Source: Aestuariispira ectoiniformans (GTDB taxonomy: Bacteria > Pseudomonadota > Alphaproteobacteria > UBA8366 > Aestuariispiraceae). From it: DNA of 64,000 bases. Made by a program: the position numbers and the translations under genes. Each line of letters opens with the position of its first letter. The stretch's first letter is position 1. The notes beneath the pieces are model-generated. The model ran no database searches and was not told where the DNA came from. It saw nothing but the letters and a program-made list of their open reading frames with translations. Of the stretch, positions 15,791 through 29,799 are shown one piece after another. The stretch lies in contig NZ_CP062788.1 of the NCBI RefSeq assembly GCF_025136295.1, positions 2,559,588 through 2,623,587 on the forward strand, given 5' to 3'.

Positions 15791-16057
15791 ATATTTCGGT
15801 ATGCCGAAAATAGAAACCTCCCTTAACCGCTGCCGTCGCCAAGCCGACAGTATAAGTGTAAGTCGCCGCTGATTCCGCTACAAGGGGCAGCATACCCGCA
15901 AATGATAAAATACCATGATTAACAGATGATAAAATCACCTTGATTAAGCACCGTGCGCTTCTATTCGCTTGTGCTGACGCACGGCAGTTTGTATGTTCCG
16001 GCTTTGCTCGGTTTCGGGCGTTTCTTCAAGACTATATCGACCCAAAGGAGTCATCTA

Positions 16058-16951
16058 ATGCCTGCAATGTTTCATGGATCGCTCACAGCACTGATCACGC
16101 CGATGACGGCTGATGGCGCTGTTGACGAGAAGGCGTTCCAGAACTTCGTGCAGTGGCAGATTGATGAGGGTACACATGGTTTAGTTCCGGTGGGCACCAC
16201 CGGCGAATCTCCAACCCTCAGCCACGCGGAGCATGAACGCGTTATCGACCTTTGTCTTGAAGTCGCCAAATCGAAGAAACGCCCGGTTATTGCCGGTGCC
16301 GGTTCCAACAGCACGGCCGAGGCGATTTCCCTGACGCAGCACGCTGCCAAAGTAGGCGCGGATGCGGCCCTGGTTGTGACGCCTTATTACAACAAGCCGA
16401 CCCAGGAAGGCCTGTATCAGCATTTCAAGGCTGTCGCGCAGTCTGCCGATATTCCGATCTTCATCTACAATATTCCGGGCCGCAGTGTGATCGACATGTC
16501 GGTTGAGACCATGGCGCGTCTGGTCCGGGACTTCCCGAATATTGTCGGTGTTAAAGACGCAACGGCCGATCTTTCCCGCCCGTTGGAAACCCGTGTCGCG
16601 ATTGGCGATAAATTCTGCCAGCTTTCCGGCGAGGATGCGACTGTTGCCGCGTTCCTGGCGCAGGGTGGTCATGGCTGTATTTCCGTGTCGTCCAACGTTG
16701 CACCGGGGCTTTGTGCGAAACTGCATAACGCCTGGATGGAAAAAGACTGGGCGACTTTCGAGGAAGTCCGTGACCGGCTGCTGCCGGTTCACGAGGCAAT
16801 GTTCTGCGAAAGCTCGCCGGGTCCGGTGAAATATGCAGCCAGCCTGCTGGGGCTGTGTGGGCCTCTGGGCCGTCTGCCGGTTGTTGAGATTTCCGAAGGC
16901 AGCAAGGCAACGGTCAAGGCTGCTTTGGAAAAAGCCGGCCTGCTGTCCTAA
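16058..16951 (+). CDS. dapA: 4-hydroxy-tetrahydrodipicolinate synthase
   Basis: 297 residues. It condenses pyruvate with aspartate semialdehyde, the first committed step to diaminopimelate and lysine. GTTGE (46-50), the Schiff-base lysine K166 in VGVKDATAD, Tyr137 in IYNIPGRS, and YYNKPTQEGLY are present. The frame opens upstream, but ATG 16058 is preceded by AAAGGAG. smpB follows after 32 bp, an order common in alphaproteobacteria. The fold also covers related aldolases (for example hydroxyproline-pathway deaminases), but the motifs and the smpB neighbour favour DapA. Confidence 0.95.
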   Translation: MPAMFHGSLTALITPMTADGAVDEKAFQNFVQWQIDEGTHGLVPVGTTGESPTLSHAEHERVIDLCLEVAKSKKRPVIAGAGSNSTAEAISLTQHAAKVGADAALVVTPYYNKPTQEGLYQHFKAVAQSADIPIFIYNIPGRSVIDMSVETMARLVRDFPNIVGVKDATADLSRPLETRVAIGDKFCQLSGEDATVAAFLAQGGHGCISVSSNVAPGLCAKLHNAWMEKDWATFEEVRDRLLPVHEAMFCESSPGPVKYAASLLGLCGPLGRLPVVEISEGSKATVKAALEKAGLLS

Positions 16952-16983: not shown

Positions 16984-17484
16984 ATGGCGGGTAAGAACAA
17001 GAACGCAAAGAAAAAAGCTGCCTTGTTGGAGTCGGGTACGGTTGCGCGCAACCGCCGCGCCCGCCATGACTATGCCATTGAAGAAGAGATTGAAGCGGGG
17101 ATCGTCCTGACCGGGACGGAGGTCAAATCCCTTCGAAGCGGAACCTGCAGTCTGAGCGATGCCTATGCGGGTCCAAAAGACGGCGAGATCTGGCTGTTCA
17201 ACGTCTATATCGGTGAATATCCCCACGCCCATAAAAAACAGCAGCACGAACCGAAGCGACCGCGTAAGCTGCTTTTGCACAAGCGCGAGCAGAACAGGCT
17301 GCTTGGTGCGGTGAAAAGGGACGGGATGACGCTTGTGCCATTGGCGCTTTATTTCAACAAGCGCGGCATCCTGAAACTGTCTATCGGGCTTGCCAAAGGT
17401 AAAACGTCCGTCGACAAGCGTCAGACAATCAAGGAACGCGATTGGAAGCGCAGCCAGGGCCGCATTATGCGGGACCTGGGTTAG
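16984..17484 (+). CDS. smpB: SsrA-binding protein SmpB
   Basis: 166 residues, near the usual 150-160. Recognisable blocks are [31 protein letters not shown], and the C-terminal [11 protein letters not shown], the basic tail that enters the mRNA channel. SmpB delivers tmRNA to ribosomes stalled on mRNAs without stop codons. Its 3' end overlaps the convergent MocR-type gene by 4 bp. tmRNA itself is not in the window. The backup rescue factor predicted at 52960 would be controlled by this system. Confidence 0.97.
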
Positions 17485-18887
17485 GGCTCTATCCCCTCAG
17501 CGATGATTTTAACAAGCCGGTCCAGGCTTGCCTGCCAATGGGGATTGTTTTCAACAAAAGCATAGTTCAAACGGATGTAGTTCGGATAGAGATTGGATAC
17601 CGAAAACATTCTGCCGGGCGAGGTCGCGATACCGGCGGCTAATGCCTTCTCATATATCCGATATCCGTCGACTGCCTCCGGCAGTCGCAGCCAGCATAGG
17701 AAACCACCCGTCGGTTGGGTAAGGCAGCAGCCAAGATCCATCAAGGATGAAAGCGCATCGCGCAAGACGCAGAAGTTGCCTTTGTAATGCCGTCTGATTT
17801 TCCTCAGATGCTTCTGGTAAAGTCCGGCCTGCAGGAAATCAGTCACACCATCGCTGATCAGATTCACATTCCCCAGGTTTGCCATGATGAGGCTGCGTTC
17901 GATCCTGTCCTGATAGCGTCCCCCAGTGATCCAGCCCAATCTGAGCCTGGAATCAACGGATTTGGACAGGGATGACAGGCAGACAACCCGGCCGGAATTG
18001 TCCATGGAACGCAGGGTCGGAGGTATATCGCCAAAGCTGACATCGCTGTAGACGTCGTCTTCGATGATCGGCAGGTCGCCGGTCAGGGCGAGAAGCCGGC
18101 GGCGTGCGGCTTCCGGCATCGTGAACCCGGCGGGGTTATTAACTGTTGGCGCGGTCAGGACGGCCTTGACCGGCCACTGCCTCAACACGTCGGCCAGCGC
18201 ATCCAGATCCATCCCGTCGCGTGTGTTCGTCGGAACTTCTATGACTTTGAGGCCATGGGCTTCGAGGGAAAGCAACGTACCGAAATAGCAGGGAGACTCA
18301 ACCGCGATCACATCACCCGGTGCGGTCAGCGCCTGTAACGTCGCGGACAGGGCCTGTTGGGCACCCTGCGTTATCAGGATGTCTGAAGGCGGCTGGAATT
18401 CTCCTCTCAAGGCGTGTTGGCGCGCGATTGCCTGCCTCAACGTAAGGGAGGCGGCGGGCATGCGGTAATGGCTGATCTGGTGAACTTGTTGGCGGGCCTG
18501 GCGGGCAATAATCCGGTAGAGTTTGTCGACAGCAGGAAAATCGGTGCGGGGGTGGGCGGAGCCCATATGGACGAGATCCTTGCGGGAGGCGTCCCGGAGA
18601 ACGGACAGGATCAGTGATTGCGTGTCGACGTCCCGCGGCTCCAAACGCTCTGACTTGGCGAGTGGCGTTGTTAGTTGTTCTTCGACGATATAGCCGGACC
18701 GGGGCAGGGCCCGTATCGTTCCATTGGCTTCCAGCTCCTGATAGGCGCGTATGACGGTATTCAGGCTGACGGACATATGTTGCGCCATCTGGCGAAGCGA
18801 CGGTAGCTTGTCCCCAGGGTTCAGGATACCATGCTGATACTGTTCTTCGATTGCGCCAATAACCTTCTGATATTGCATGTCTGTCAA
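17481..18887 (-). CDS. MocR-type regulator (GntR winged helix fused to aminotransferase fold)
   Basis: 468 residues. N-terminal winged helix (about 1-75) with [20 protein letters not shown] and [16 protein letters not shown], then a class I aminotransferase-like domain with the PLP lysine in [18 protein letters not shown]. MocR proteins sense amino-acid or vitamin B6 ligands through PLP and usually regulate the divergent gene, here a DMT exporter starting 103 bp away. Two copies of TGTAYCTGT lie in that interval. The 3' end overlaps smpB by 4 bp. ATG 18878 is an alternative start. Confidence 0.93.
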
Positions 18888-18889
18888 TC

Positions 18890-18941
18890 TGTATCTGTCG
18901 ATTTGATGGAAACTGTTTCTTTTCAGGAATACTGTACCTGT
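18890..18941. promoter_or_regulatory. Direct repeats TGTAYCTGT, candidate MocR operator
   Basis: TGTATCTGT at 18890-18898 and TGTACCTGT at 18933-18941 are spaced 43 bases start to start, about four helical turns, in the MocR/DMT-transporter intergenic region. The first abuts the regulator start codon. Directly repeated half-sites are typical of MocR regulators. Binding here is inferred. Confidence 0.5.
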
Positions 18942-18989
18942 ATAGAACCGGATTCAACAAATGGAAGTTTTTCAGGGGAGCGTGAGCTC

Positions 18990-19886
18990 ATGTTGCAAAA
19001 GATGGCGCCAGGAATTTTCGTGCTTTTGTGGAGCACCGGTTTCATCGGTGCGAAATTCGGGCTGCCCTTTGCTGAGCCGCTGACCCTGTTGACGATACGC
19101 ATGGCGTTGAACCTTGTGGTTTTCGCCGCGTTCGCATGTCTGGTGGGGTCGAAAACGGTTCGGCCCCGCCAGGCCGGGCATGCCATGGTCGTAGGGGCGC
19201 TTATTCACGCGGTTTACCTGGGCGGAGTTTTCTGGGCGATCTCAAGGGGGATGCCTGCCGGATTGGCGGCCCTTGTGGTTGGCCTGCAGCCACTGGTCAC
19301 GGCCATCCTGTCGATCTTCTGGTTCCGGCAATATCTGTTGCCGGTGCAATGGGGCGGTATGCTGCTGGGTTTTGGCGGTGTGTTTCTGGTTCTCAGCGGC
19401 CGGTTTGACTGGTCCATGCTCAGCGGAGAACTGTTCTGGCCGGTCGCGGTATGCGTCAGCTCCCTTTTTGCGATCACCATTGGTGCTATGTATCAGAAAC
19501 GCTTTTGCGGGAATGTCGATTTGGTCTGGGGGGCCTTCTGGCAGTATTTTGCAGCCCTGGTTGTCTTGGCACCAATTGCTTATACGACCGAAAGCATGCA
19601 TGTGAACTGGACGCCGACCTTTATTGCAACCATGGGGTGGCTGGTTCTCGTTCTGTCTTTTGCTGCGATTTTGTTGCTGATGTATCTCGTGCGCCATGGC
19701 GACGCATCCAAGGTCGCCTCTCTGTTCTATCTGGTGCCGCCACTGGCCGCGCTGGAGGCGTTCGTTCTCTTTGATGAGCGTTTCGGTTTGATTGGTGCTG
19801 CGGGGTTTGCCGTGACCGCGGTCGGCGTCTATCTGGTGATGCGTCCGCCGCGTCGCCGGGTTGTTGTGGTCGGTGGGGCTGATTGA
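18990..19886 (+). CDS. DMT-superfamily (EamA) transporter
   Basis: 298 residues with about ten hydrophobic segments in two EamA repeats. The first starts FVLLWSTGFIGAKFGLPFAE, and the C-terminal half has ASLFYLVPPLAALEAFVLFDE, the family hallmark. Proteins of this type export amino acids, threonine/homoserine-like compounds or other small metabolites from the cytoplasm. ATG 18990 is used because GGGGAG and GAG precede it. The divergent MocR gene is the likely regulator. Its substrate may be an amino acid, given the neighbouring amino-acid genes, but this is inference. Confidence 0.88.
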   Translation: MLQKMAPGIFVLLWSTGFIGAKFGLPFAEPLTLLTIRMALNLVVFAAFACLVGSKTVRPRQAGHAMVVGALIHAVYLGGVFWAISRGMPAGLAALVVGLQPLVTAILSIFWFRQYLLPVQWGGMLLGFGGVFLVLSGRFDWSMLSGELFWPVAVCVSSLFAITIGAMYQKRFCGNVDLVWGAFWQYFAALVVLAPIAYTTESMHVNWTPTFIATMGWLVLVLSFAAILLLMYLVRHGDASKVASLFYLVPPLAALEAFVLFDERFGLIGAAGFAVTAVGVYLVMRPPRRRVVVVGGAD

Positions 19887-19913: not shown

Positions 19914-21182
19914 TTAATTGAAGCGTGCGATGCTGAAGGCATCAATATTCACGGACGGTGCCTGACCGCTGGCCAGGTCGGCGATTACCTGGCCCGTGCC
20001 TGCGGCCTGCGTCAGCCCGAGATGCCCGTGGCCGAATGCGAAGAATGCGTTTTTGTGTATGGGGGAGGCACCGATGACCGCAAGGCTGTCAGGGGTGGAC
20101 GGGCGATGCCCCATCCATTCCTTGGCACCTTCCTCCTGAAGGTCGGGTAGATAACGCTGGCCCAACTTCAAAAGAGCCTTGGAGCGTTTGAAATTCGCCG
20201 GTGCATCGAGACCGGCAAATTCGGCTGCCCCGCCGATGCGCAGCCCGATGTCGAGGTGAGACAAGGCAAAGTGGCCTTCCGCGGACATAATCGGATGGTT
20301 CAGGCGGACGCCGGGATTGGGAAGCGTGGTGTTATAGCCGCGTTCGCTTTCCAGCAGAACTTTGCTTCCCAGTTTCCTGGCAAGCGTCTTGGACCATGCT
20401 CCGGCAGCGACGACGACCTTATCAAAGAAGATTTCCCGGCCATCTGCGCAACGCACGGCGATCGGGACATTCTGGTTGAAGGTGAAGTCCAGCGCCTGTC
20501 CGGAAATGATCTCACCGCCCAGCGACAGGAAATGATCCGCAAGGCGCGTCGCGATCCGCGCCGGGTCCGACACGCGGGCATAGCTTGGGCAGTAGACGGC
20601 ATGCTTGAAGATCGGTGCCAGGTCCGGTTCCCGCTCGTGCAATTGCTCTGGCGTTAGCGGTTCGAAAGGAACACCGCGTTTGCGGTAGAGGTTCCAATAG
20701 GCTTCGTCACCCTTGTAGGCGGCCTCTGTCTCATAGACCGTGATATTCCCGGTCCAATGTATTTCATTGTGAAGGCCGGCCTCCTTGGAGATGTCCTTCC
20801 AGCTATCGGTTGTCAGCTCCATAAGCGCCGCCGCCGCCGTGGAGGTCCGCTCCACCTGATCCCAGTTGCCCGCCCGCATGAAGCGCCATAGCCAGGGCAC
20901 AAGAGCGGGGAGGTGGGACCAACGTATGGCAAGTGGTCCCAATGGGTCCAATAGCCAGCCCGGTACATGCTTGATGATGCCGGGCATGGCCATGGGCACG
21001 ACTTCCGATACAGCCAGGCAACCGGCATTGCCGAAGCTTGCCTCCTGGCCGGGTTGACCCCGTTCCAGGATTTGCACATTAAAGCCGGCCTTTTTCAGGT
21101 GGATCGCGCATTGAATGCCGACGATGCCGCCACCAATGACCAGTGCCTTTTGTGTCTGTTCAGTTGCCTGACTGTTTGTCAT
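19914..21182 (-). CDS. FAD-dependent D-amino-acid dehydrogenase (DadA-like)
   Basis: 422 residues. The dinucleotide site ALVIGGGIVGIQCAIHL is at the N-terminus, followed by ERGQPGQEASFGNAG, typical of DadA and D-hydroxyproline dehydrogenases. The C-terminal block GHRPSTPDSLAVIGAS and HGHLGLTQAAGTG is the FAD-binding end of the DAO fold. It oxidises D-amino acids to imino acids and passes electrons to the respiratory chain. As last gene of the operon with KGSA dehydrogenase and a hydroxyproline-family enzyme, a cis-4-hydroxy-D-proline substrate is plausible. It is not proven by sequence. Confidence 0.88.
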   Translation of the reverse strand: MTNSQATEQTQKALVIGGGIVGIQCAIHLKKAGFNVQILERGQPGQEASFGNAGCLAVSEVVPMAMPGIIKHVPGWLLDPLGPLAIRWSHLPALVPWLWRFMRAGNWDQVERTSTAAAALMELTTDSWKDISKEAGLHNEIHWTGNITVYETEAAYKGDEAYWNLYRKRGVPFEPLTPEQLHEREPDLAPIFKHAVYCPSYARVSDPARIATRLADHFLSLGGEIISGQALDFTFNQNVPIAVRCADGREIFFDKVVVAAGAWSKTLARKLGSKVLLESERGYNTTLPNPGVRLNHPIMSAEGHFALSHLDIGLRIGGAAEFAGLDAPANFKRSKALLKLGQRYLPDLQEEGAKEWMGHRPSTPDSLAVIGASPIHKNAFFAFGHGHLGLTQAAGTGQVIADLASGQAPSVNIDAFSIARFN

Positions 21183-21213: not shown

Positions 21214-22653
21214 TTAGCCGAATGTATAAGCGGTTTTCACCGTTGTGAAAAACTCCGCAGCATAACGACCTTGTTCGCGACTGCCAAAGCTTGATCCTTT
21301 CCGGCCACCGAATGGCACGTGATAGTCAACACCGGCGGTCGGCAGGTTTACCATCACCATGCCTGCCTTGGCATTAGCCTTGTAATGTCGTGCATATTTC
21401 AAGGACGTCGTGCAGATGCCGGACGATAGACCAAATTCAGTGTCGTTGGCCAGATACAAAGCCTGTTCATAGTCTTTTGCCTTGACGACACTGGCGACCG
21501 GCCCGAAGACTTCCTCCTGGTTGATGCGCATGCCGTTTTCGGTTTCGGTAAACAGGGCGGGTTGCAGATAGAAACCGTCCTTGCTGCGTTCCAGGCGATC
21601 CCCGCCGAAGGCCAGCGTCGCGCCTTCGGCTTTGGCAATGTTGATATAGTCCAGATCCTGGGTAAGTTGGCGTTCGTCCACAACGGGCCCAATATGCGTA
21701 CCCTCTGCCAGGGCGTCGTCCACTTTCAGGCCCTGGAGTTTTCCGATGACGGCGTCGACGAAACGGTCGTGGATGCCTTCTGTCACGATCAGGCGGGAGG
21801 AGGCGGTGCAGCGCTGTCCGGTGGAGAAGAAGGCGCCATTGACGGCACAGTCGACCGCGATGTCCAGATCGGCATCGTCCAACACGACCAGCGGGTTCTT
21901 GCCGCCCATTTCCATCTGGAATTTCGCCATGCGGGCGGCGCATTTGGCCGCGATCTGACTGCCGGTTGCGACCGAGCCGGTGAAGGTAACACCATCGATC
22001 CGGCGGTCGGTGACGATTTTCTCGCCGACGACCGAACCGCGTCCCATGACCAGGTTGAAGACACCGGTGGGCAGGCCGGACCGGGAAAGGATTTCGGCAA
22101 TCGCCCAGGCACAGCCCGGAACCAGGTCTGCCGGTTTGAAAACGACCGTGTTGCCATAGCAAAGGGCAGGGGCAATCTTCCAGGCCGGAATGGCAATGGG
22201 GAAGTTCCAGGGCGTGATGATGCCGACAGTGCCCAGGGCCTCACGGGTGACGTCCACCTCGACACCGGGGCGAACAGAGGCGAGGTGGTCGCCTGTCAGG
22301 CGCAGGGCCTCACCGGCAAAGAATTTGAAAATCTGACCGGCGCGGGCTGCTTCGCCAATACCCTCGGGCAGGGTTTTGCCTTCTTCCCGGGCAAGCAGAC
22401 GACCAAGTTCTTCCTTACGCGCCAGGATTTCATTGCCGACGAAATCCAGAATGTCATGGCGTTGTTGCGGCGTGGATTGTGACCACTGATCCTGTGCGAT
22501 AGCCGCGGCGGCGATGGCGTCTTCGACATCCTGCTCGGTGGCGCGGGCATACTGGCCGACGATGTCGGATGTGTCGGACGGGTTGATATTGGAATTGCTG
22601 TCCACAGACGTGCGGAACTCGCCGGCGATATAGTTGCCAAACTGCTGCATCAT
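21214..22653 (-). CDS. Aldehyde dehydrogenase, alpha-ketoglutarate semialdehyde (2,5-dioxovalerate) type
   Basis: 479 residues. The catalytic Cys lies in [16 protein letters not shown], the general-base Glu in [13 protein letters not shown], and the NAD site in FTGSVATGS. The Cys block is the form seen in alpha-ketoglutarate semialdehyde dehydrogenases, which finish hydroxyproline, glucarate or pentose degradation by making 2-oxoglutarate. The frame begins ATGATG, preceded by TAGGAGAGA; the second ATG (22650) has the better spacing. It lies between the dehydrogenase and the dehydratase genes in one operon, favouring a hydroxyproline role. Confidence 0.88.
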
Positions 22654-22673: not shown

Positions 22674-23690
22674 TTATTTCAGAAGAAAGCCTTTGGCCAA
22701 AGGGTCTTCGGCCTCGATGGTGAACTGGGAGCGGCCTGTGTAATAGGACTGTCCGCTGACGCGGGCGCGGACTGCGGGAAAGTCACCGCAGCGTGTTTCT
22801 TCGGCTATTTCGCCCGTGAAGAGGCAGCCGGTAACGCTCTCGAACAGGCGTTGTTGACCGGGTTTTATCTGACCGCGCTTGGCCTGGGCGGCGATGCGTG
22901 CGGTGACGCCGGAGCCGGTCGGGCTGCGATCCACCTGGGCATCGGCGAAAACGCATATATTCGCGGTTGGCTCTGCACTGAATTCGTCATTGCCGTCGGT
23001 CAGGATCGTGCCATAGAGGAAGGCAAGGTCGGGATCATCCGGGTGGTGCAGGGGAATCTGGGCTTTGACTGCTTCGGTGACTTCTGTTGCTGCATCGACA
23101 AGATCCCGTGTGCGGGACTTTCGGACGTCGAGGCCGAAGGTGTCGGCAGGGGCAAGGGCATAAAAGGCACCGCCATAGGCGATATCCACCTCCACCGGTC
23201 CGTAGGTTGGTGTTGCCGCCAGACGGCTCAGGGCAAAGGCGAAAGCGGGGACACTGTCAAAGGAGACCTGTCCGGGAACGCCCTTTTCGACCTGAACATG
23301 CGCACGGACCAGACCGCAGGGGCATTCGATGTTGACGGTGGTTACCGGTTCGACGACCGGGACGAGGCCCTTGTCAATGGCATAGCGCCCCAAGGCGATG
23401 GTCGCGTGGCCGCACATTGTGCTGTAACCCTCGTTATGGGTGAACAGCACAGCCAGATGCGCCTCCGGATGGGATGGGGGCACGGGGATTACGCCATACA
23501 TGTCGTAATGGCCGCGGGGCTCGAACATGAGGGCCTTGCGGAAGTGATCCAGATTGTCGCGAACATAGCGCCGCTTTGCCAGAATGCTGCCCCCCGGAAT
23601 GTCGGGATATCCGGTTTCGATGATGCGAACCGGCTCCCCGCCGGTATGCATTTCCACAGTTTCAAAGACCGGCCATTCCTTGTCTGCCAT
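22674..23690 (-). CDS. Proline racemase family, likely trans-3-hydroxy-L-proline dehydratase
   Basis: 338 residues from ATG 23690 (GGGAG upstream). The first catalytic position is Cys93 in GYSTMCGHATIALGR. The second is Thr258 in DRSPTGSGVTARI, where racemases and 4-hydroxyproline epimerases have a second Cys. The Cys/Thr pair is the known hallmark of trans-3-hydroxy-L-proline dehydratase (as in the human enzyme), which yields pyrroline-2-carboxylate. The neighbours, a D-amino-acid dehydrogenase and KGSA dehydrogenase, belong instead to 4-hydroxyproline breakdown. No pyrroline-2-carboxylate reductase or hydroxyproline deaminase is next to it. It is first in the operon. Confidence 0.88.
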   Translation of the reverse strand: MADKEWPVFETVEMHTGGEPVRIIETGYPDIPGGSILAKRRYVRDNLDHFRKALMFEPRGHYDMYGVIPVPPSHPEAHLAVLFTHNEGYSTMCGHATIALGRYAIDKGLVPVVEPVTTVNIECPCGLVRAHVQVEKGVPGQVSFDSVPAFAFALSRLAATPTYGPVEVDIAYGGAFYALAPADTFGLDVRKSRTRDLVDAATEVTEAVKAQIPLHHPDDPDLAFLYGTILTDGNDEFSAEPTANICVFADAQVDRSPTGSGVTARIAAQAKRGQIKPGQQRLFESVTGCLFTGEIAEETRCGDFPAVRARVSGQSYYTGRSQFTIEAEDPLAKGFLLK

Positions 23691-23801: not shown

Positions 23802-23831
23802 TTGTATATTGGATACAATATTCACTATGAT
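23802..23831 (+). promoter_or_regulatory. ABC transporter promoter overlapped by a palindromic operator
   Basis: TTGTAT (23802-23807), ATTGG, ATACAA (23813-23818) is a perfect 6-bp inverted repeat. TTGTAT also serves as a -35 with TATGAT (23826-23831) as -10 at 18-base spacing, for the substrate-binding-protein gene. A similar palindrome core, TGTATACA, lies before the GntR/FCD gene at 29630. FCD-type GntR proteins commonly bind such short palindromes. A repressor on this site would block the -35. The regulator is inferred. Confidence 0.55.
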
Positions 23832-23896: not shown

Positions 23897-24724
23897 ATGA
23901 GAAAGACTTTGAAAACTCTTGGGGGAATTACCGCATTTGCTGTGCTGGCTGTCTCGGCGGCAGGCAGTGCGCAGGCGGACAAATTAGACGATATTATTGA
24001 TTCAGGTGAACTGCGTTGCAGTGTCACTCTGGATTTTCCGCCGATTGGATATAGGGATCAGAACAACGAGCCGGCTGGTTTTGATGTCGAATACTGCAAG
24101 GACATGGCCAAGGCCCTTGGCGTGGATGCAGTGATCGTCGACACACCTTTCCCGGACCGTATTCCGGCCCTGGTTTCCAACCGTGCGGACATTTCCATTG
24201 CCAGTGCATCCGATACGCTGGAGCGGGCAAAGACGGTGGCCTTTTCGGTGCCGTATATTGCCTATACCAACCGGGTCGTGACCCGCAAAGATACCGGGAT
24301 TCAGAATTTTGACGATCTGAAAGGCCGTAAGGTCGGGGGTGTTTCCGGTACTACGCCGGAGCAGAATTTCCTGGAGCACTATAAAAACTGGGGCAATTCG
24401 GGGGGCGATTATGTGTCCTACCAGTCGGATTCGGATCAGTATCTGGCATTGGCGCAGGGCAAGATCGACGCCTTTGTGACCGCATCGACAACGGCGGCAA
24501 CGCTGATGAACAGTGGCAAATACAAAGACTTTGCGGCTGTGGGCGAGGCACCGTTCCCCGTCGATATCTGCGGCATCATGGTGAACCGTCATGAATATGG
24601 CTTGCTGAACTGGGTGAACCTGTTTGTGAACCGTCAGGTTCGTAGCGGTCGCTATCAGGAACTGTATGAACAGTTTGTCGGTGGTGAAGCGCCGAAACTG
24701 GCGGTGTCGGGCGTCTATTACTAA
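23897..24724 (+). CDS. Amino-acid ABC transporter, periplasmic substrate-binding protein
   Basis: 275 residues. A signal peptide ends near AGSAQA (about 27), followed by the family 3 solute-binding fold: GELRCSVTLDFPPIGYRDQN, then EPAGFDVEYCKDMAKALGV and RADISIASASDTLERAK. These proteins bind polar amino acids in the periplasm. GGGAGGCGACA precedes the start. It is first of a four-gene ABC operon divergent from the hydroxyproline-type operon, so the ligand may be a hydroxyproline or proline-like amino acid. Sequence alone does not fix that. Confidence 0.94.
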   Translation: MRKTLKTLGGITAFAVLAVSAAGSAQADKLDDIIDSGELRCSVTLDFPPIGYRDQNNEPAGFDVEYCKDMAKALGVDAVIVDTPFPDRIPALVSNRADISIASASDTLERAKTVAFSVPYIAYTNRVVTRKDTGIQNFDDLKGRKVGGVSGTTPEQNFLEHYKNWGNSGGDYVSYQSDSDQYLALAQGKIDAFVTASTTAATLMNSGKYKDFAAVGEAPFPVDICGIMVNRHEYGLLNWVNLFVNRQVRSGRYQELYEQFVGGEAPKLAVSGVYY

Positions 24725-24801: not shown

Positions 24802-25464
24802 GTGATTGACTATTCCTTTCACTGGGGGCCGGTCTGGAAGGCGATGCCCGCCTTGCTAAAGGGCGCGCAAATCACTTTGGAAATTACGGTTTTGTCGATG
24901 ATTATCGGCACAATCCTGGCCGTCTTCCATGCCCTGGGACGGCAGTCGAAGAATAAGACTGTTTACGGCCTTGCCACTGGTTGGGTCGAACTGGCCCGTA
25001 ATACGCCGAGCCTGTTCCAGATGTATATGGCCTATTTCGGCCTGGGCACTATTGGGCTGCATCTGGATTCTTATACGGCGGTCCTATCTGCCCTGGCTTT
25101 CAACAATGCCGGTTATCTGGCGGAAGTGCTGCGAGGCGGTTTCAATGCAGTGCCCAAGACACAGATGGCGGCGGCGCGATCACTGGGTATGAACCCGTTT
25201 CAGGCCTATTCCCGCGTTATACTGCCCCAGGTTTTCCGCGTTGTTTTCTATCCGGCGACAAACCAGATGATGTGGGCACTGTTGAATTCGTCCCTGGGCA
25301 TGATTGTCGGGTTGAAGGAATTGACGGGGGCCACGGCCTTCCAGCAGTCGCTGACCTTCCGGTCCTTCGAATTCTTCTTTGCAGCGGCCGTCATGTATTA
25401 CGTGATCGCGAAGATCGTCACTATGGGTGCGCGTCTGGCCGCACGCCGGTTGTTCCGGGGGTAG
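24802..25464 (+). CDS. Amino-acid ABC transporter permease 1
   Basis: 220 residues with about five TM helices and the HisM/GlnP permease pattern: ELARNTPSLFQMYMAYFGLG near the N-terminal third, then EVLRGGFNAVPKTQMAAARSLGM, the EAA loop that docks on the ATPase. Start is GTG 24802, with GAGGAGAG upstream; this is the best-placed start. The second permease begins 5 bp after its stop. Confidence 0.93.
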   Translation: MIDYSFHWGPVWKAMPALLKGAQITLEITVLSMIIGTILAVFHALGRQSKNKTVYGLATGWVELARNTPSLFQMYMAYFGLGTIGLHLDSYTAVLSALAFNNAGYLAEVLRGGFNAVPKTQMAAARSLGMNPFQAYSRVILPQVFRVVFYPATNQMMWALLNSSLGMIVGLKELTGATAFQQSLTFRSFEFFFAAAVMYYVIAKIVTMGARLAARRLFRG

Positions 25465-25468
25465 GGCG

Positions 25469-26119
25469 ATGTATTCAGGTTTAAGTTTCAATGATCTCTA
25501 CTATATGGCGGAAGGTGCCGGGCGAACGGTTTACCTCGCGATCTGGTCCATCACGCTTGGTACGGCCCTTGGCCTGTTGCTTGGCTGGATACGGGCAAAG
25601 ACGGCGCGTAACCCGATCGGCAATCTTCTCTTGGCGGGTTATCTGGACATTTTCCGCAGTATTCCGCTCATCATTCAGTTCATCCTGTTTAACAGCATTG
25701 CCGCTGTGGTCGGTGTTCCGATGGACCCCGTGACCTCCGGCATCGTCGTTCTGACTTTGTATATGGGCGCCTACTGCGCGGAAATCGTCCGTGGTGGTTA
25801 TGATGCGGTGCCGCTGCCGACGCGCCGGGCAGGGCGGTCGCTGGGCATGACCTATTGGCAGGATTTACGCTATGTGGTGCTGCCTTTGGGCCTGCGGACG
25901 ATCTTTCCGGCCTGGATCGGGTTGGTGGTCGGTGTCGTCAAGGATACTGCACTCGTTGCCGTTCTTGGTTATATCGAGCTGCTGCGTGCCTCCCAGATCG
26001 TGATTACCCGTACCCAGGAACCGATTCTGGTCCTCAGCGGGGTTGGCATTTTCTATTTCGCGATCTGCTTCCCGATTTCCCAATACAGTAAACGCCTTGA
26101 GCGGAGAATGGCGATATGA
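25469..26119 (+). CDS. Amino-acid ABC transporter permease 2
   Basis: 216 residues from ATG 25469. The open frame runs further upstream, but that part overlaps permease 1 and lacks family similarity. DIFRSIPLIIQFILFNSIA and the EAA loop EIVRGGYDAVPLPTRRAGRS LGM are typical of the polar amino-acid permease family. It pairs with permease 1 to form the membrane channel. Its TGA overlaps the ATG of the ATPase gene by 4 bp (ATGA). Confidence 0.93.
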   Translation: MYSGLSFNDLYYMAEGAGRTVYLAIWSITLGTALGLLLGWIRAKTARNPIGNLLLAGYLDIFRSIPLIIQFILFNSIAAVVGVPMDPVTSGIVVLTLYMGAYCAEIVRGGYDAVPLPTRRAGRSLGMTYWQDLRYVVLPLGLRTIFPAWIGLVVGVVKDTALVAVLGYIELLRASQIVITRTQEPILVLSGVGIFYFAICFPISQYSKRLERRMAI

Positions 26120-26838
26120 TCTCCATTGAGAATGTAAATAAATCCTTTGGTTCCCTGAATGTCCTGACCGGCATCGATCTGGAAGTCCATAAGGGGGAGG
26201 TGCTGAGCCTGATTGGGCCCAGCGGTTCCGGAAAATCCACATTACTACAGTGCATTAACGGCCTGGAACCGATCCAGGGCGGCAAAATTGTGGTGGATGG
26301 AATTTCCGTTCACGACAAGAAGACCGATCTGAACAAGCTGCGCCGGCATATCGGCATTGTTTTCCAGCAGTGGAATGCCTTTCCCCACCTGACAGCGCTT
26401 GAGAATGTTGCGCTGGCGCCGCGTGTCGTCCTCAAGGTCAGCCGGAAGGAAGCGCTGGAGCGGGCGCGTGCGCAGTTGGACAAGGTCGGATTGGGGGACA
26501 AGGCCGATGTCTTCCCATCACGTCTGTCCGGTGGACAGCAGCAGCGTCTGGCGATTGCACGCGCGTTGGCCATGGACCCGGATTATATGCTGTTCGACGA
26601 GGTGACATCCGCCCTGGACCCGGAACTGGTTGGTGAGGTTCTCGACACCCTTCGCATGTTGCAGCGCGATGGCATGACCATGATTGTGGTCACCCATGAG
26701 ATTCCTTTCGCCCGCGATGTATCTGACCGGGTGGCCTTCTTCCATTCCGGTGTCATCTGTGAACTGGGCGCGCCGGATCAGGTGATTGATAATCCGCAGG
26801 ATGAGAAAACAAAGAAATTTCTTCGCAATATCAATTGA
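26116..26838 (+). CDS. Amino-acid ABC transporter ATP-binding protein
   Basis: 240 residues, the standard size for GlnQ/HisP-type ATPases. Walker A is IGPSGSGKSTLLQCI, the Q-loop is GIVFQQWNAFPHLTALENV, the signature is RLSGGQQQRLAIARAL, Walker B is YMLFDEVTSALDPE, and the H-loop is VVTHEIPFA. All motifs are intact. It energises uptake by the preceding permeases. ATGA overlap with permease 2 implies coupled translation. A strong terminator follows. Confidence 0.96.
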   Translation: MISIENVNKSFGSLNVLTGIDLEVHKGEVLSLIGPSGSGKSTLLQCINGLEPIQGGKIVVDGISVHDKKTDLNKLRRHIGIVFQQWNAFPHLTALENVALAPRVVLKVSRKEALERARAQLDKVGLGDKADVFPSRLSGGQQQRLAIARALAMDPDYMLFDEVTSALDPELVGEVLDTLRMLQRDGMTMIVVTHEIPFARDVSDRVAFFHSGVICELGAPDQVIDNPQDEKTKKFLRNIN

Positions 26839-26877: not shown

Positions 26878-26914
26878 TCCCGGGCGAGGTGCTCACCGCC
26901 CGGGACTTTTTTTA
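26878..26914 (+). terminator. Intrinsic terminator of the ABC operon
   Basis: TCCCGGGCG (26878-26886) pairs perfectly with CGCCCGGGA (26897-26905), followed by CTTTTTTTAT. The loop includes the stop codon of the convergent MocR gene, so the hairpin may serve both strands, but the T tract lies only on the plus side. Confidence 0.88.
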
Positions 26915-28281
26915 TCCAGAATTTGTTGCAGAGCACATGCGGCCTGATCGGCCATGTCGGTGGGGACATTCGTGAAATTGAGTAACAGGCCGGAGCCCGT
27001 ATAGTTGTCGCTGGAGCCGCGACTGACAAAATCCGCGGCGAGGCCCTGATCATAGGACGCTTTGGACAAAGCACGGTCGTCTGTGCCGGGCGGCAGCATC
27101 GCCATGATATGCATGCCGCCCTGACAAAGATCCATGGTCAGAGAGGGGCAATGCTGTATCAGCGCATCATGCAGCGCCTGACGACGTTCGCCATAAAGCT
27201 TTCTCATGCGTTTGATATGGCGGGCGAAAAAGCCTTCGGCCATGAAGGTCGCGACGGTGGACTGTATCAGGGGGGAAGGCGGCGGCAGAAGCAGGTCGGC
27301 GATGCTTCTCATCCGGTCAACCATGTGAACCGGCACAACGAGATAGGCTATACGCAGCCCCGAAAACAAAACCTTGCTGAATGTCCCTGCGAAGAATACG
27401 CGGTCCTGACTGTCCAGGCTTTTCAGGGCGGGCAGGGGCGGACCGGTGTAACGGAACTCGCTGTCATAATCGTCTTCAAGGATGTAGGCATCGGCCTGAC
27501 CGGCCCAGGCGAGAAGCTCCTGTCGGCGCGGAACGGGCATTGTCACGGTCGTTGGAAAATGATGGGTCGGTGTCACCAGGGCCAGTCTGGCGTCCGGTGC
27601 CTGGGCACAGGCAAGCGCGATTTGCAGGCCTTCATGGTCAACGGACACCGGTGTGACTTTGCCTCCCAGCCGCTTGATGGCATCTATTGCGCGAAAATAT
27701 CCCGGGTCCTCCATCCAGACCTTATCATCCTTGTTCAGGATCGCCTGACAGACCATGGTTATTGACGCCTGATAACCGGCGGTAATGAAAATCTGGTCGG
27801 GCAGGCAGGAGATTCCGCGTGATAGTTTCAGATAGCCGGCGATTGCGGTCCGCAAAGGCCAGAAGCCAATGGGATCCTGATGGTCCAGGTTGGCAATGGG
27901 GAGTTGCCGTGCCATGCGCCCCGCAATTCGGGCCCAGCTCTTTCGCGGGAAGGCATCAAGGGCAGGCAAGCCCATCTGAAAGAGGCCCGGTTTGCCGGCA
28001 ATGAAGGTCTGGTGGGGAAGTGAAGTCTCCTGCGGAGGGCTTGCGGCGGGTTCCGTGGTTTGTGCGGTCAGATTGTGGGGAACAAATGTGCCCGCGGTGC
28101 TGCGCGTTTCCAGGTATCCTTCGGCGATAAGTAACTGGTAGGCATGATCGACCGTACCCCGTGCGATCCCTAACTGACTGGCATAGCTGCGGGCGGAGGG
28201 AAGACGCCCGCCCGACGGAAGATGCCCCGTCAAAATCTCATCCCTGATACGGCTGTATATGTCGCGGTAGGTAGGTTGCAT
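26893..28281 (-). CDS. MocR-type regulator (GntR-aminotransferase fusion)
   Basis: About 462 residues from ATG 28281; an in-frame TTG at 28299 is less likely. Winged helix about 1-75 (LPSGGRLPSARSYASQLGI, GTVDHAYQLLIAEGYLETR), then a class I aminotransferase domain with EDDYDSEFRY and the PLP lysine in FFAGTFSKVLFSGLRIAYL. It is divergent from an AhpD-like gene across about 130 bp holding a near-perfect 22-bp palindrome, the expected arrangement for a MocR regulator and its target. It is not a PdxR: no pdx genes are near. Confidence 0.93.
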   Translation of the reverse strand: MQPTYRDIYSRIRDEILTGHLPSGGRLPSARSYASQLGIARGTVDHAYQLLIAEGYLETRSTAGTFVPHNLTAQTTEPAASPPQETSLPHQTFIAGKPGLFQMGLPALDAFPRKSWARIAGRMARQLPIANLDHQDPIGFWPLRTAIAGYLKLSRGISCLPDQIFITAGYQASITMVCQAILNKDDKVWMEDPGYFRAIDAIKRLGGKVTPVSVDHEGLQIALACAQAPDARLALVTPTHHFPTTVTMPVPRRQELLAWAGQADAYILEDDYDSEFRYTGPPLPALKSLDSQDRVFFAGTFSKVLFSGLRIAYLVVPVHMVDRMRSIADLLLPPPSPLIQSTVATFMAEGFFARHIKRMRKLYGERRQALHDALIQHCPSLTMDLCQGGMHIMAMLPPGTDDRALSKASYDQGLAADFVSRGSSDNYTGSGLLLNFTNVPTDMADQAACALQQILDKKSPGR

Positions 28282-28329
28282 GCTGTCGGTCCGGATCAAA
28301 CTTCAATTGGCATAGTATTTAATGCAAAA

Positions 28330-28923: not shown

Positions 28924-29583
28924 CTATTCCTTGTCGTGTTTTTCCGCGAGGTAGGCGACCAGGGAACGGCCTGCATTTAGAATGTGGTCTTCCAGCAGCT
29001 TGCAGACTTCTTCTTTCTTGCCCTCCCGGCACAGGCGCAGCATTTCGCGGTGTTCATCCTGCGCACGCCGGACGCCGTCCGTGAATTGCAATTGCATGCG
29101 CGTATAGCGGTCGACCTTTTGTCCTAGGCTGTTGATAATTGCCATTGTTTGCGCGCGATCAGCCTTTTCAAACAGACAATTGTGGAACATGCGGTTCAAC
29201 GCACCCCATTGTGCAACATCGCCCTCCGCCAAAGCTTTGTCATAGTCGTCCAGAGTTTTCTCTGCACTGTCGAAGTCCGCTTCCGTGAGGCGTGGAAGGG
29301 CCGTTGCCAGGAGTTTGGGCTCCAGAGCCGCACGAATTTCGAAAAGCTCTTCCACTTCCTTGAGCGATAGTGAGGCGACGACCGCGCTTCTATGGGCCTG
29401 GGAAATGATAAGGCCTTCTGCCTCCAACTGGCGTAGGGCTTCGCGGACGGGGATACGGCTTACATCATACTTCTTGGCGATGGCATCCTGGCGAAGTTGC
29501 TCGCCTTCGGGGATGTCGCCATTCAGGATGGCCTCCCGGAGAACTTCCACCAATCCCTCCGCCACGGTCTGACGCTTGAACAT
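28924..29583 (-). CDS. GntR-family regulator, FadR/FCD subfamily
   Basis: 219 residues from ATG 29583, which has AGGTGG before it; the upstream open frame (to 29769) lacks family similarity. Winged helix about 1-75 with EQLRQDAIAKKYDVSRIPVR and EALRQLEAEGLI, then an all-helical FCD ligand domain with metal-binding-type Asp/His positions (ALNRMFHNCLFEKADR, EDHILNAGRSL). These repressors respond to organic or amino acids. Palindrome TGTATACA lies about 47 bp before its start, suggesting self-control, and a related palindrome lies at the ABC promoter 4.8 kb away. Confidence 0.92.
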   Translation of the reverse strand: MFKRQTVAEGLVEVLREAILNGDIPEGEQLRQDAIAKKYDVSRIPVREALRQLEAEGLIISQAHRSAVVASLSLKEVEELFEIRAALEPKLLATALPRLTEADFDSAEKTLDDYDKALAEGDVAQWGALNRMFHNCLFEKADRAQTMAIINSLGQKVDRYTRMQLQFTDGVRRAQDEHREMLRLCREGKKEEVCKLLEDHILNAGRSLVAYLAEKHDKE

Positions 29584-29629
29584 ACCCACCTGGATCCTTT
29601 CACATAGAAATGCGCTTGTTGTGGAAAAC

Positions 29630-29637
29630 TGTATACA
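29630..29637. promoter_or_regulatory. TGTATACA palindrome upstream of the GntR/FCD gene
   Basis: TGTATACA is a perfect 8-bp palindrome in ACTGTATACAATTT, 47 bases before the GntR start codon. It shares the GTATNNNATAC-like half-sites of the site at 23802. It fits an autoregulatory operator, but this is inference from one short match. Confidence 0.4.
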
Positions 29638-29799
29638 ATTTTGAACTCCCGAAGGCCAGCCCTTGAGGCGGTGTTGACTTGTCTTGCGGATGTCTTGGAT
29701 TTTATCAAATTTTTCAGCCATTTCGTCTACGTATATAAATATTGAGGCTGAATTCACTTCCCGGCACAATTTCGAATGTAAAAGTGTAGGTGAGCCGGG

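Follow-up and report, generated by a model that had tools for sequence, protein, structure and literature searches.

A putative trans-3-hydroxyproline dehydratase operon as a probable part of a scattered hydroxyproline regulon in Aestuariispira ectoiniformans

The stretch of 64,000 nucleotides of the A. ectoiniformans genome analyzed here (hereafter, the window) very likely carries one part of a scattered regulon for 3- and 4-hydroxyproline, in which a putative trans-3-hydroxy-L-proline dehydratase (t3HypD) shares its operon with two probable enzymes of 4-hydroxyproline breakdown. The other 4-hydroxyproline enzymes lie elsewhere in the genome behind the same control site, and thus, this odd operon appears to be part of an ordinary scattered pathway. 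This reading starts from features directly observed in the DNA, i.e., the gene content, the catalytic residues, the orthology, and a palindrome common to the promoters.

The first gene of the operon (22674..23690, minus strand) is a genuine ORF of 338 aa that encodes a member of the proline racemase superfamily, matching PF05544 (proline racemase family) at 353 bits. Numbered from MADKEW, the protein has Cys93 at the first catalytic position (motif MCGH) and Thr258 at the second (motif DRSPTGSG). The earlier note had taken this pair to fit a t3HypD and not a racemase/epimerase with two Cys, and our alignments, the conservation, and the fold ranking agree with it. In the phmmer alignment to 7qpo, Cys93 and Thr258 fall on chain positions 125 and 294, which would be Cys104 and Thr273 of human L3HYPDH after subtracting a 21-residue offset, a value consistent with the residue numbers in PMC9309405. 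Both residues are kept in 80/80 close homologous loci (that of Aestuariispira insulae and 79 loci of the genome collection, after omission of one duplicate), so the pair is no coincidence; as these loci are the best 80 among 139 relatives recovered by means of two peptide patterns, 58-72% identical to the window t3HypD, their agreement shows conservation inside the subfamily. A relative from genome G017 (37% identity to the window t3HypD) was dropped from the t3HypD count, having Gly in place of Thr258.

The AlphaFold2 model of the protein (25-sequence alignment, mean pLDDT 90) places Cys93 immediately before helix 94-106 and Thr258 immediately before helix 259-271; a ligand carboxylate that bridges the N-termini of two opposing helices has been described (PMC4113996). 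When this model was searched with Foldseek, the six best solved matches were chains of the Thermococcus litoralis and human t3HypDs. The best of six NCBIfam models was NF045511 (trans-3-hydroxy-L-proline dehydratase), with 348.9 bits against a cut-off of 540 that is an annotation threshold and not a biochemical criterion, and therefore, our assignment of the enzyme type draws on the residues and the fold and not on equivalog membership. The protein has the proline racemase fold, one catalytic Cys, and a Thr replacing the second Cys, as in the Cys/Thr t3HypDs; with Thr258 at the second site, it has neither the two Cys nor the Ser/Cys of 4-hydroxyproline epimerases (4HypE) and proline racemases. 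Sequence, fold ranking, and conservation thus support a Cys/Thr dehydratase over a two-Cys epimerase, and the gene very probably encodes a t3HypD, as predicted from its sequence.

Human L3HYPDH (7qpo) shares with the window enzyme the fold, the Cys/Thr pair, and 58% identity over the Foldseek alignment, and its redox-disulphide residue Cys137 has an equivalent, Cys123; the window enzyme differs in being bacterial and in lying in an operon with 4-hydroxyproline enzymes. The T. litoralis t3HypD (6r76) also has the fold and the pair (MCGH and DRSPTGTG in the alignment), but it is archaeal and has no Cys123 equivalent. In the human enzyme, Cys137 and Cys104 form a disulphide with a role in redox regulation (PMC9309405), and by analogy the Cys123 conserved in the window t3HypD might possibly act in a bacterial redox switch. 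A literature search combining bacterial L3HYPDH and disulfide found nothing relevant. The Cys123 position is occupied by Cys in 32 of the 80 homologues, by Ala in 46, and by Val in 2.

The second gene of the operon (21214..22653, minus strand) encodes an aldehyde dehydrogenase (ALDH; PF00171) that is probably an alpha-ketoglutaric semialdehyde (KGSA) dehydrogenase: its best NCBIfam model is NF042993 (KGSADH; 533 bits against a cut-off of 770), and it has orthologues that are 75-76% identical in four Kiloniella hydroxyproline (hyp) clusters and 68-69% identical beside the deaminase in A. insulae (G001) and genome G012. A PDB search with this protein at 1e-100 gave no match. The third gene (19914..21182, minus strand) encodes a DadA-like FAD-dependent D-amino-acid dehydrogenase of the DAO family (PF01266), below the cut-off of its best NCBIfam model. 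It shares 42% identity with the flavoenzyme of the Sinorhizobium meliloti hyp cluster, and its orthologues adjoin 4HypE in Kiloniella, Sneathiellales, Thalassospira, and G012, suggesting that it is probably a cis-4-hydroxy-D-proline dehydrogenase. The two activities that the earlier note had assigned to these genes thus hold at the family level. As that note had also observed, the operon contains neither a pyrroline-2-carboxylate reductase nor a hydroxyproline deaminase. The DapA-family gene of the window (15953..16951) was rejected as deaminase; it lies beside a gene that we take, by eye, to be smpB, has an 81% orthologue beside the t3HypD-DAO pair of A. insulae, and looks like a housekeeping dapA.

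The operon diverges from genes for an amino-acid ABC transporter, all on the plus strand, that encode a substrate-binding protein (23897..24724; 55% identity to that of the S. meliloti hyp cluster), two permeases (24802..25464 and 25427..26119; 54% and 49% to S. meliloti), and an ATPase (26116..26838; 70% to S. meliloti). The transporter resembles S. meliloti HypMNPQ, presented as the hydroxyproline importer of that species in PMC5343134. A MocR-type (GntR-aminotransferase) regulator gene and a divergent DMT/EamA-like transporter gene, the latter below the cut-offs of its models, adjoin the operon (17481..19886), and a second MocR-type gene (26893..28299) is over the cut-off of the PdxR model.

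The 4.36 Mb genome, a single contig (C1), holds three members of the proline racemase superfamily. One of them (C1:3704194-3705165) is of the Cys/Cys type, passes the 4-hydroxyproline epimerase model NF010578 (599 against 376 bits), and shares 73% identity with the S. meliloti 4HypE. It is adjoined by a DHDPS-family gene, the deaminase candidate, the pair spanning C1:3704194-3706118, and within the surrounding 18 kb, a tblastn search using the reference proteins detected no DAO or ALDH gene. This 3.70 Mb locus complements the window operon: the genome contains the trans-4-hydroxyproline gene set of epimerase, DAO-family enzyme, DHDPS-family deaminase, and KGSA dehydrogenase, with the 4HypE assigned over cut-off and the window DAO and ALDH at family level. 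The earlier note had supposed that either the missing enzymes are elsewhere or the route differs, and had proposed a genome search for epimerase, deaminase, and reductase. The first two were located at 3.70 Mb, and with the reductase candidate discussed below, the data support the former supposition; the latter, though conceivable, is not needed.

The two loci are linked by their promoters. Between the divergent operons of the window lies an operator-like palindrome, ATTGGATACAAT (23808..23819, plus strand), and the t3HypD/transporter intergenic region and the deaminase-4HypE promoter at 3.70 Mb have in common the 14-mer ATTGGATACAATAT. Its first 13 bases, ATTGGATACAATA, which include that palindrome, occur in two exact copies in the genome, only at these two promoters; one mismatch brings in four further places, the reversed control giving 1. 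A second palindrome, ACTGTATACAAT (29628..29639, plus strand), is found about 45 bp upstream of the start of a GntR/FCD regulator gene (28924..29583, minus strand; start re-read as ATG at 29583, the mechanical ORF extending to 29769), and autoregulation is possible. The profile of this regulator and its relatives beside hyp genes make it the probable controller of the regulon. Such relatives are 46-49% identical in Kiloniella, Sneathiellales, and Thalassospira and 37% in G012, and others at 43-48% were found in unrelated contexts too. Three plasmid relatives (Sinorhizobium medicae, Azospirillum, and Mesorhizobium; of 459 matching records) had no annotated hydroxyproline genes nearby in a gene table that is incomplete. 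We infer that the regulator binds the palindrome. The half-sites TTGT/ACAA agree with the TKGT/ACMA motif given for the FadR subfamily in PMC6608401, so the site type is ordinary; the Streptomyces coelicolor HypR motif in that same paper differs from the palindrome described here.

Allowing one mismatch, ATTGTATACAAT was found in 14/39 hyp promoter regions, at 10 of 17 loci, counts to be read knowing that the pattern was picked after inspection of the window, that the regions were hand-picked, some after the sites were known, and that related species are not independent. Of the 15 matches in the 17 loci, 14 fall inside the chosen regions; 59 permuted palindromes of matched composition averaged 0.05 there, with at most 1 for any of them, and the 72 other t3HypD loci (1.14 Mb) contain no match to ATTGTATACAAT. 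The 25 regions without a match at one mismatch include four from A. insulae/G002, four from S. meliloti, two from a third locus (1.21 Mb), and the promoters of t3HypD in Thalassospira and in a Sneathiellales MAG. Related palindromes lie ahead of hydroxyproline genes in Kiloniella, Thalassospira, the Sneathiellales MAG, and G012, where the site requires two mismatches. With 24% identity between the window GntR and the GntR of the S. meliloti hyp cluster, and no palindrome in the S. meliloti regions, the regulon does not belong to the S. meliloti HypR type. No description of this palindrome with hydroxyproline genes was found in the open-licence literature, and RegPrecise may well record one.

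One of the one-mismatch copies of the 13-mer precedes a different GntR/FCD gene, which is next to an allantoinase-like gene (393 against 425 bits), suggesting that related regulators may use like sites; the palindrome may therefore not be specific to hydroxyproline genes. Two more copies are within ORFs, namely the end of an AmiR/ANTAR-type ORF and an ORF with no Pfam match beside a DgcA-type racemase. The copy at C1:3665468 is followed, after about 24 bp, by an M24 peptidase gene with a re-read start (L126 260-1477), whose product has a creatinase/prolidase N-terminal domain and Xaa-Pro dipeptidase as best NCBIfam model (153 against 630 bits). It is possibly a hydrolase of hydroxyproline peptides and a further regulon member, and we do not count on this site for the regulon.

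The neighborhoods of relatives were surveyed in 81 loci, window included, by tblastn with reference proteins and, in selected loci, choice of ORFs by codon composition, since longest-ORF calling failed in GC-rich loci, where antisense ORFs won. A flavoenzyme of the window type accompanies t3HypD in at least 8, and a Cys/Cys-type 4HypE in at least 7, of the 80 non-window loci, several stretches ending at contig ends; 72/80 have no DAO of the window type within the stretch examined. In four Kiloniella loci (L025, L026, L028, and L030), the order is GntR, t3HypD, ALDH, DAO, 4HypE. Kiloniella thus has, like A. ectoiniformans, the GntR, a Cys/Thr t3HypD, a DAO (43-45%), a Cys/Cys-type 4HypE (72-73% to that of A. 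ectoiniformans), and the same palindrome, but its 4HypE is inside the cluster, and no deaminase was seen within the stretch examined. The Sneathiellales MAG has GntR, a cis-3-hydroxy-L-proline dehydratase (638 against 500 bits), t3HypD, an unknown protein, a DHDPS-family gene, DAO, 4HypE, and an amidohydrolase; the unknown protein (L019 4353-5612) has 419 aa and no Pfam match at E up to 1e-10. In Thalassospira, t3HypD faces GntR, 4HypE, DAO, and a DHDPS-family gene.

The order to which A. ectoiniformans belongs was surveyed in 43 genomes, its own included. Three of them have a t3HypD match at E up to 1e-60, one of which is not Cys/Thr, and the searches recovered 4HypE at 1e-90 in 4, ALDH at 1e-180 in 8, and the deaminase at 1e-70 in 3; the flavoenzyme query matches 36/43 at 1e-70, a threshold at which it is uninformative. 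G012 has a single cluster in which GntR faces substrate-binding protein, permeases, ATPase, deaminase (with one in-frame TGA inside the match), ALDH, DAO, 4HypE, and t3HypD, the last being of the Ser/Thr type (640 against 550 bits) and replacing the Cys/Thr type. In A. insulae, the set is spread over three loci, i.e., t3HypD-DAO, 4HypE, and ABC-deaminase-ALDH. The hydroxyproline parts travel as a set that is partitioned differently among relatives. Genome G002 (L128) has an 84% orthologue of 4HypE and neither the deaminase (1e-70) nor the ALDH (1e-180) of the set; its 4HypE may have another role.

Other neighborhoods have contents of their own. Three loci of marine Rhodospirillaceae/Alphaproteobacteria (L020, L021, and L022) have t3HypD beside sarcosine-oxidase-type subunits, and an MttB-family methyltransferase and a DMGDH-like demethylase are also near it in L021 and L022, hinting that 3-hydroxyproline is broken down there in a methylated (betaine) form. 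A 278-aa protein (L031 7138-7974 and relatives), which by eye we take to be isocitrate-lyase/PEP-mutase-like, is present in 55/85 loci searched and lies just upstream of t3HypD in 12 loci with position given (Mesorhizobium and kin).

The third superfamily member of the genome raises the question of whether 4-hydroxyproline is degraded only via its locus at 1.21 Mb (L005 4708-9391), the window flavoenzyme and ALDH serving another substrate. This locus has a complete-looking set, in which a Ser/Cys protein accompanies an ABC transporter, a DHDPS-family gene, a DAO, and an ALDH. However, its proteins match the window and the hyp clusters of relatives poorly (DAO 33-38%, ALDH 26-37%), the Ser/Cys protein reaches the cut-off of none of the five listed models, and its two promoter regions examined are among those without the palindrome, so that we regard this possibility as improbable. 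The Ser/Cys gene is followed there by two genes that, by eye, are presumably SDR-like.

It is also very unlikely that the t3HypD candidate of the window is, in spite of its Thr258, a 4-hydroxyproline epimerase, whether true or bifunctional, which would make this a 4-hydroxyproline operon short only of the deaminase. Promiscuous members of the superfamily exist, and a Ser/Cys member epimerises (PMC4113996), but the Thr is invariant in the close homologues, the genome has the separate Cys/Cys 4HypE over cut-off, and a window-type protein and a 4HypE occur in the same cluster in Kiloniella, the Sneathiellales MAG, and Thalassospira, where their roles look divided. The Cys/Thr dehydratase is thus the assignment retained below.

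The final step for trans-3-hydroxyproline, the reductase, is the least certain and the weak point of the proposed pathway. The search for this enzyme gave one OCD-type candidate and, for the Ldh_2 type, no member in the genome. There are four OCD-family proteins, and three of them pass their own curated models as ornithine cyclodeaminase (NF005762, 579 against 350 bits), EutC (489 against 472), and BhcD (567 against 500) and were rejected as dedicated reductases, including the ornithine cyclodeaminase, whose gene adjoins that of the 3.70 Mb 4HypE. One half reaction of an ornithine cyclodeaminase is the reduction of pyrroline-2-carboxylate, and on that chemistry, this enzyme could conceivably serve as a stand-in. 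The fourth protein (C1:791704-792666) is the candidate; its best model is NF004793 (pyrroline/piperideine-2-carboxylate reductase), at a sub-cut-off 275 against 322 bits. Its gene is unlinked and lies at none of the six sites that match the 13-mer with at most one mismatch, and a search of A. insulae at E up to 1e-60 gave no match to the protein; A. insulae has a different member of the reductase family (37% identical) that passes the cut-off at 445 bits.

This weak point leaves room for a route without reductase, in which the flavoenzyme would oxidise 5-amino-2-oxovalerate (pyrroline-2-carboxylate in its open form) at the C5 amine, giving alpha-ketoglutarate semialdehyde, which the ALDH would convert to 2-oxoglutarate, making the operon complete for trans-3-hydroxyproline. 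The operon has exactly t3HypD, flavoenzyme, and ALDH, the only reductase candidate is sub-cut-off, and A. insulae keeps t3HypD and flavoenzyme together away from its 4-hydroxyproline genes. Nevertheless, orthologues of the flavoenzyme and ALDH are grouped with 4HypE and deaminase in G012, Thalassospira and the Sneathiellales MAG likewise combine the flavoenzyme with both, a relative of the flavoenzyme occurs in the hyp cluster of S. meliloti, and A. insulae does have a reductase-family member over cut-off, and we consider such a route highly improbable. Its elaboration, in which the t3HypD would in addition be redox-gated via Cys93-Cys123, as proposed for the human enzyme, is extremely improbable.

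The pSymB hyp region of S. meliloti (annotated in strain ml21) contains the same kinds of genes, i.e., t3HypD, 4HypE, flavoenzyme, ABC transporter, DHDPS-family, and ALDH genes. It differs in that its own t3HypD is of the Ser/Thr type (30% to that of the window), its ALDH (28%) and its regulator belong to other lineages, an Ldh-family oxidoreductase and an aconitase X are present as well, and it is a single cluster, whereas the A. ectoiniformans set is split. The genes for 4HypE and t3HypD are reported to be adjacent in several species using both compounds, and pathways may be distributed over several transcription units (PMC4113996). Hydroxyproline clusters often serve the trans-4, cis-3, and trans-3 compounds, according to PMC5144071, and according to PMC5343134, the organization of the hyp operon varies and hypR is autoregulated in 32/46 genomes. 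The combination of pathways is thus already known and is rearranged here, this instance being what is new; our literature search on hydroxyproline in Aestuariispira found no paper.

In the scattered regulon that we propose, the ABC transporter would import hydroxyprolines, and the Cys/Thr enzyme would dehydrate trans-3-hydroxy-L-proline to delta1-pyrroline-2-carboxylate. Cys93 would be the sole base, taking the alpha-proton, and Thr258 should not act as a second base, and therefore, no epimerisation is expected. The unlinked candidate reductase might then convert delta1-pyrroline-2-carboxylate to L-proline. For trans-4-hydroxyproline, the 3.70 Mb epimerase would yield cis-4-hydroxy-D-proline, the window flavoenzyme would oxidise this to the imino acid, the 3.70 Mb DHDPS-family deaminase would convert the latter to alpha-ketoglutarate semialdehyde, and the window aldehyde dehydrogenase would produce 2-oxoglutarate. 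The GntR/FCD protein probably represses both loci via the common palindrome.

The apparently incomplete operon of the window would thus be explained by the regulon, with the four 4-hydroxyproline steps distributed over two loci under one promoter palindrome. For this part of the Alphaproteobacteria, the palindrome offers a GntR site of hydroxyproline genes that is open to direct testing, and the window t3HypD, close to the human enzyme down to its second redox cysteine, would make a convenient bacterial model.
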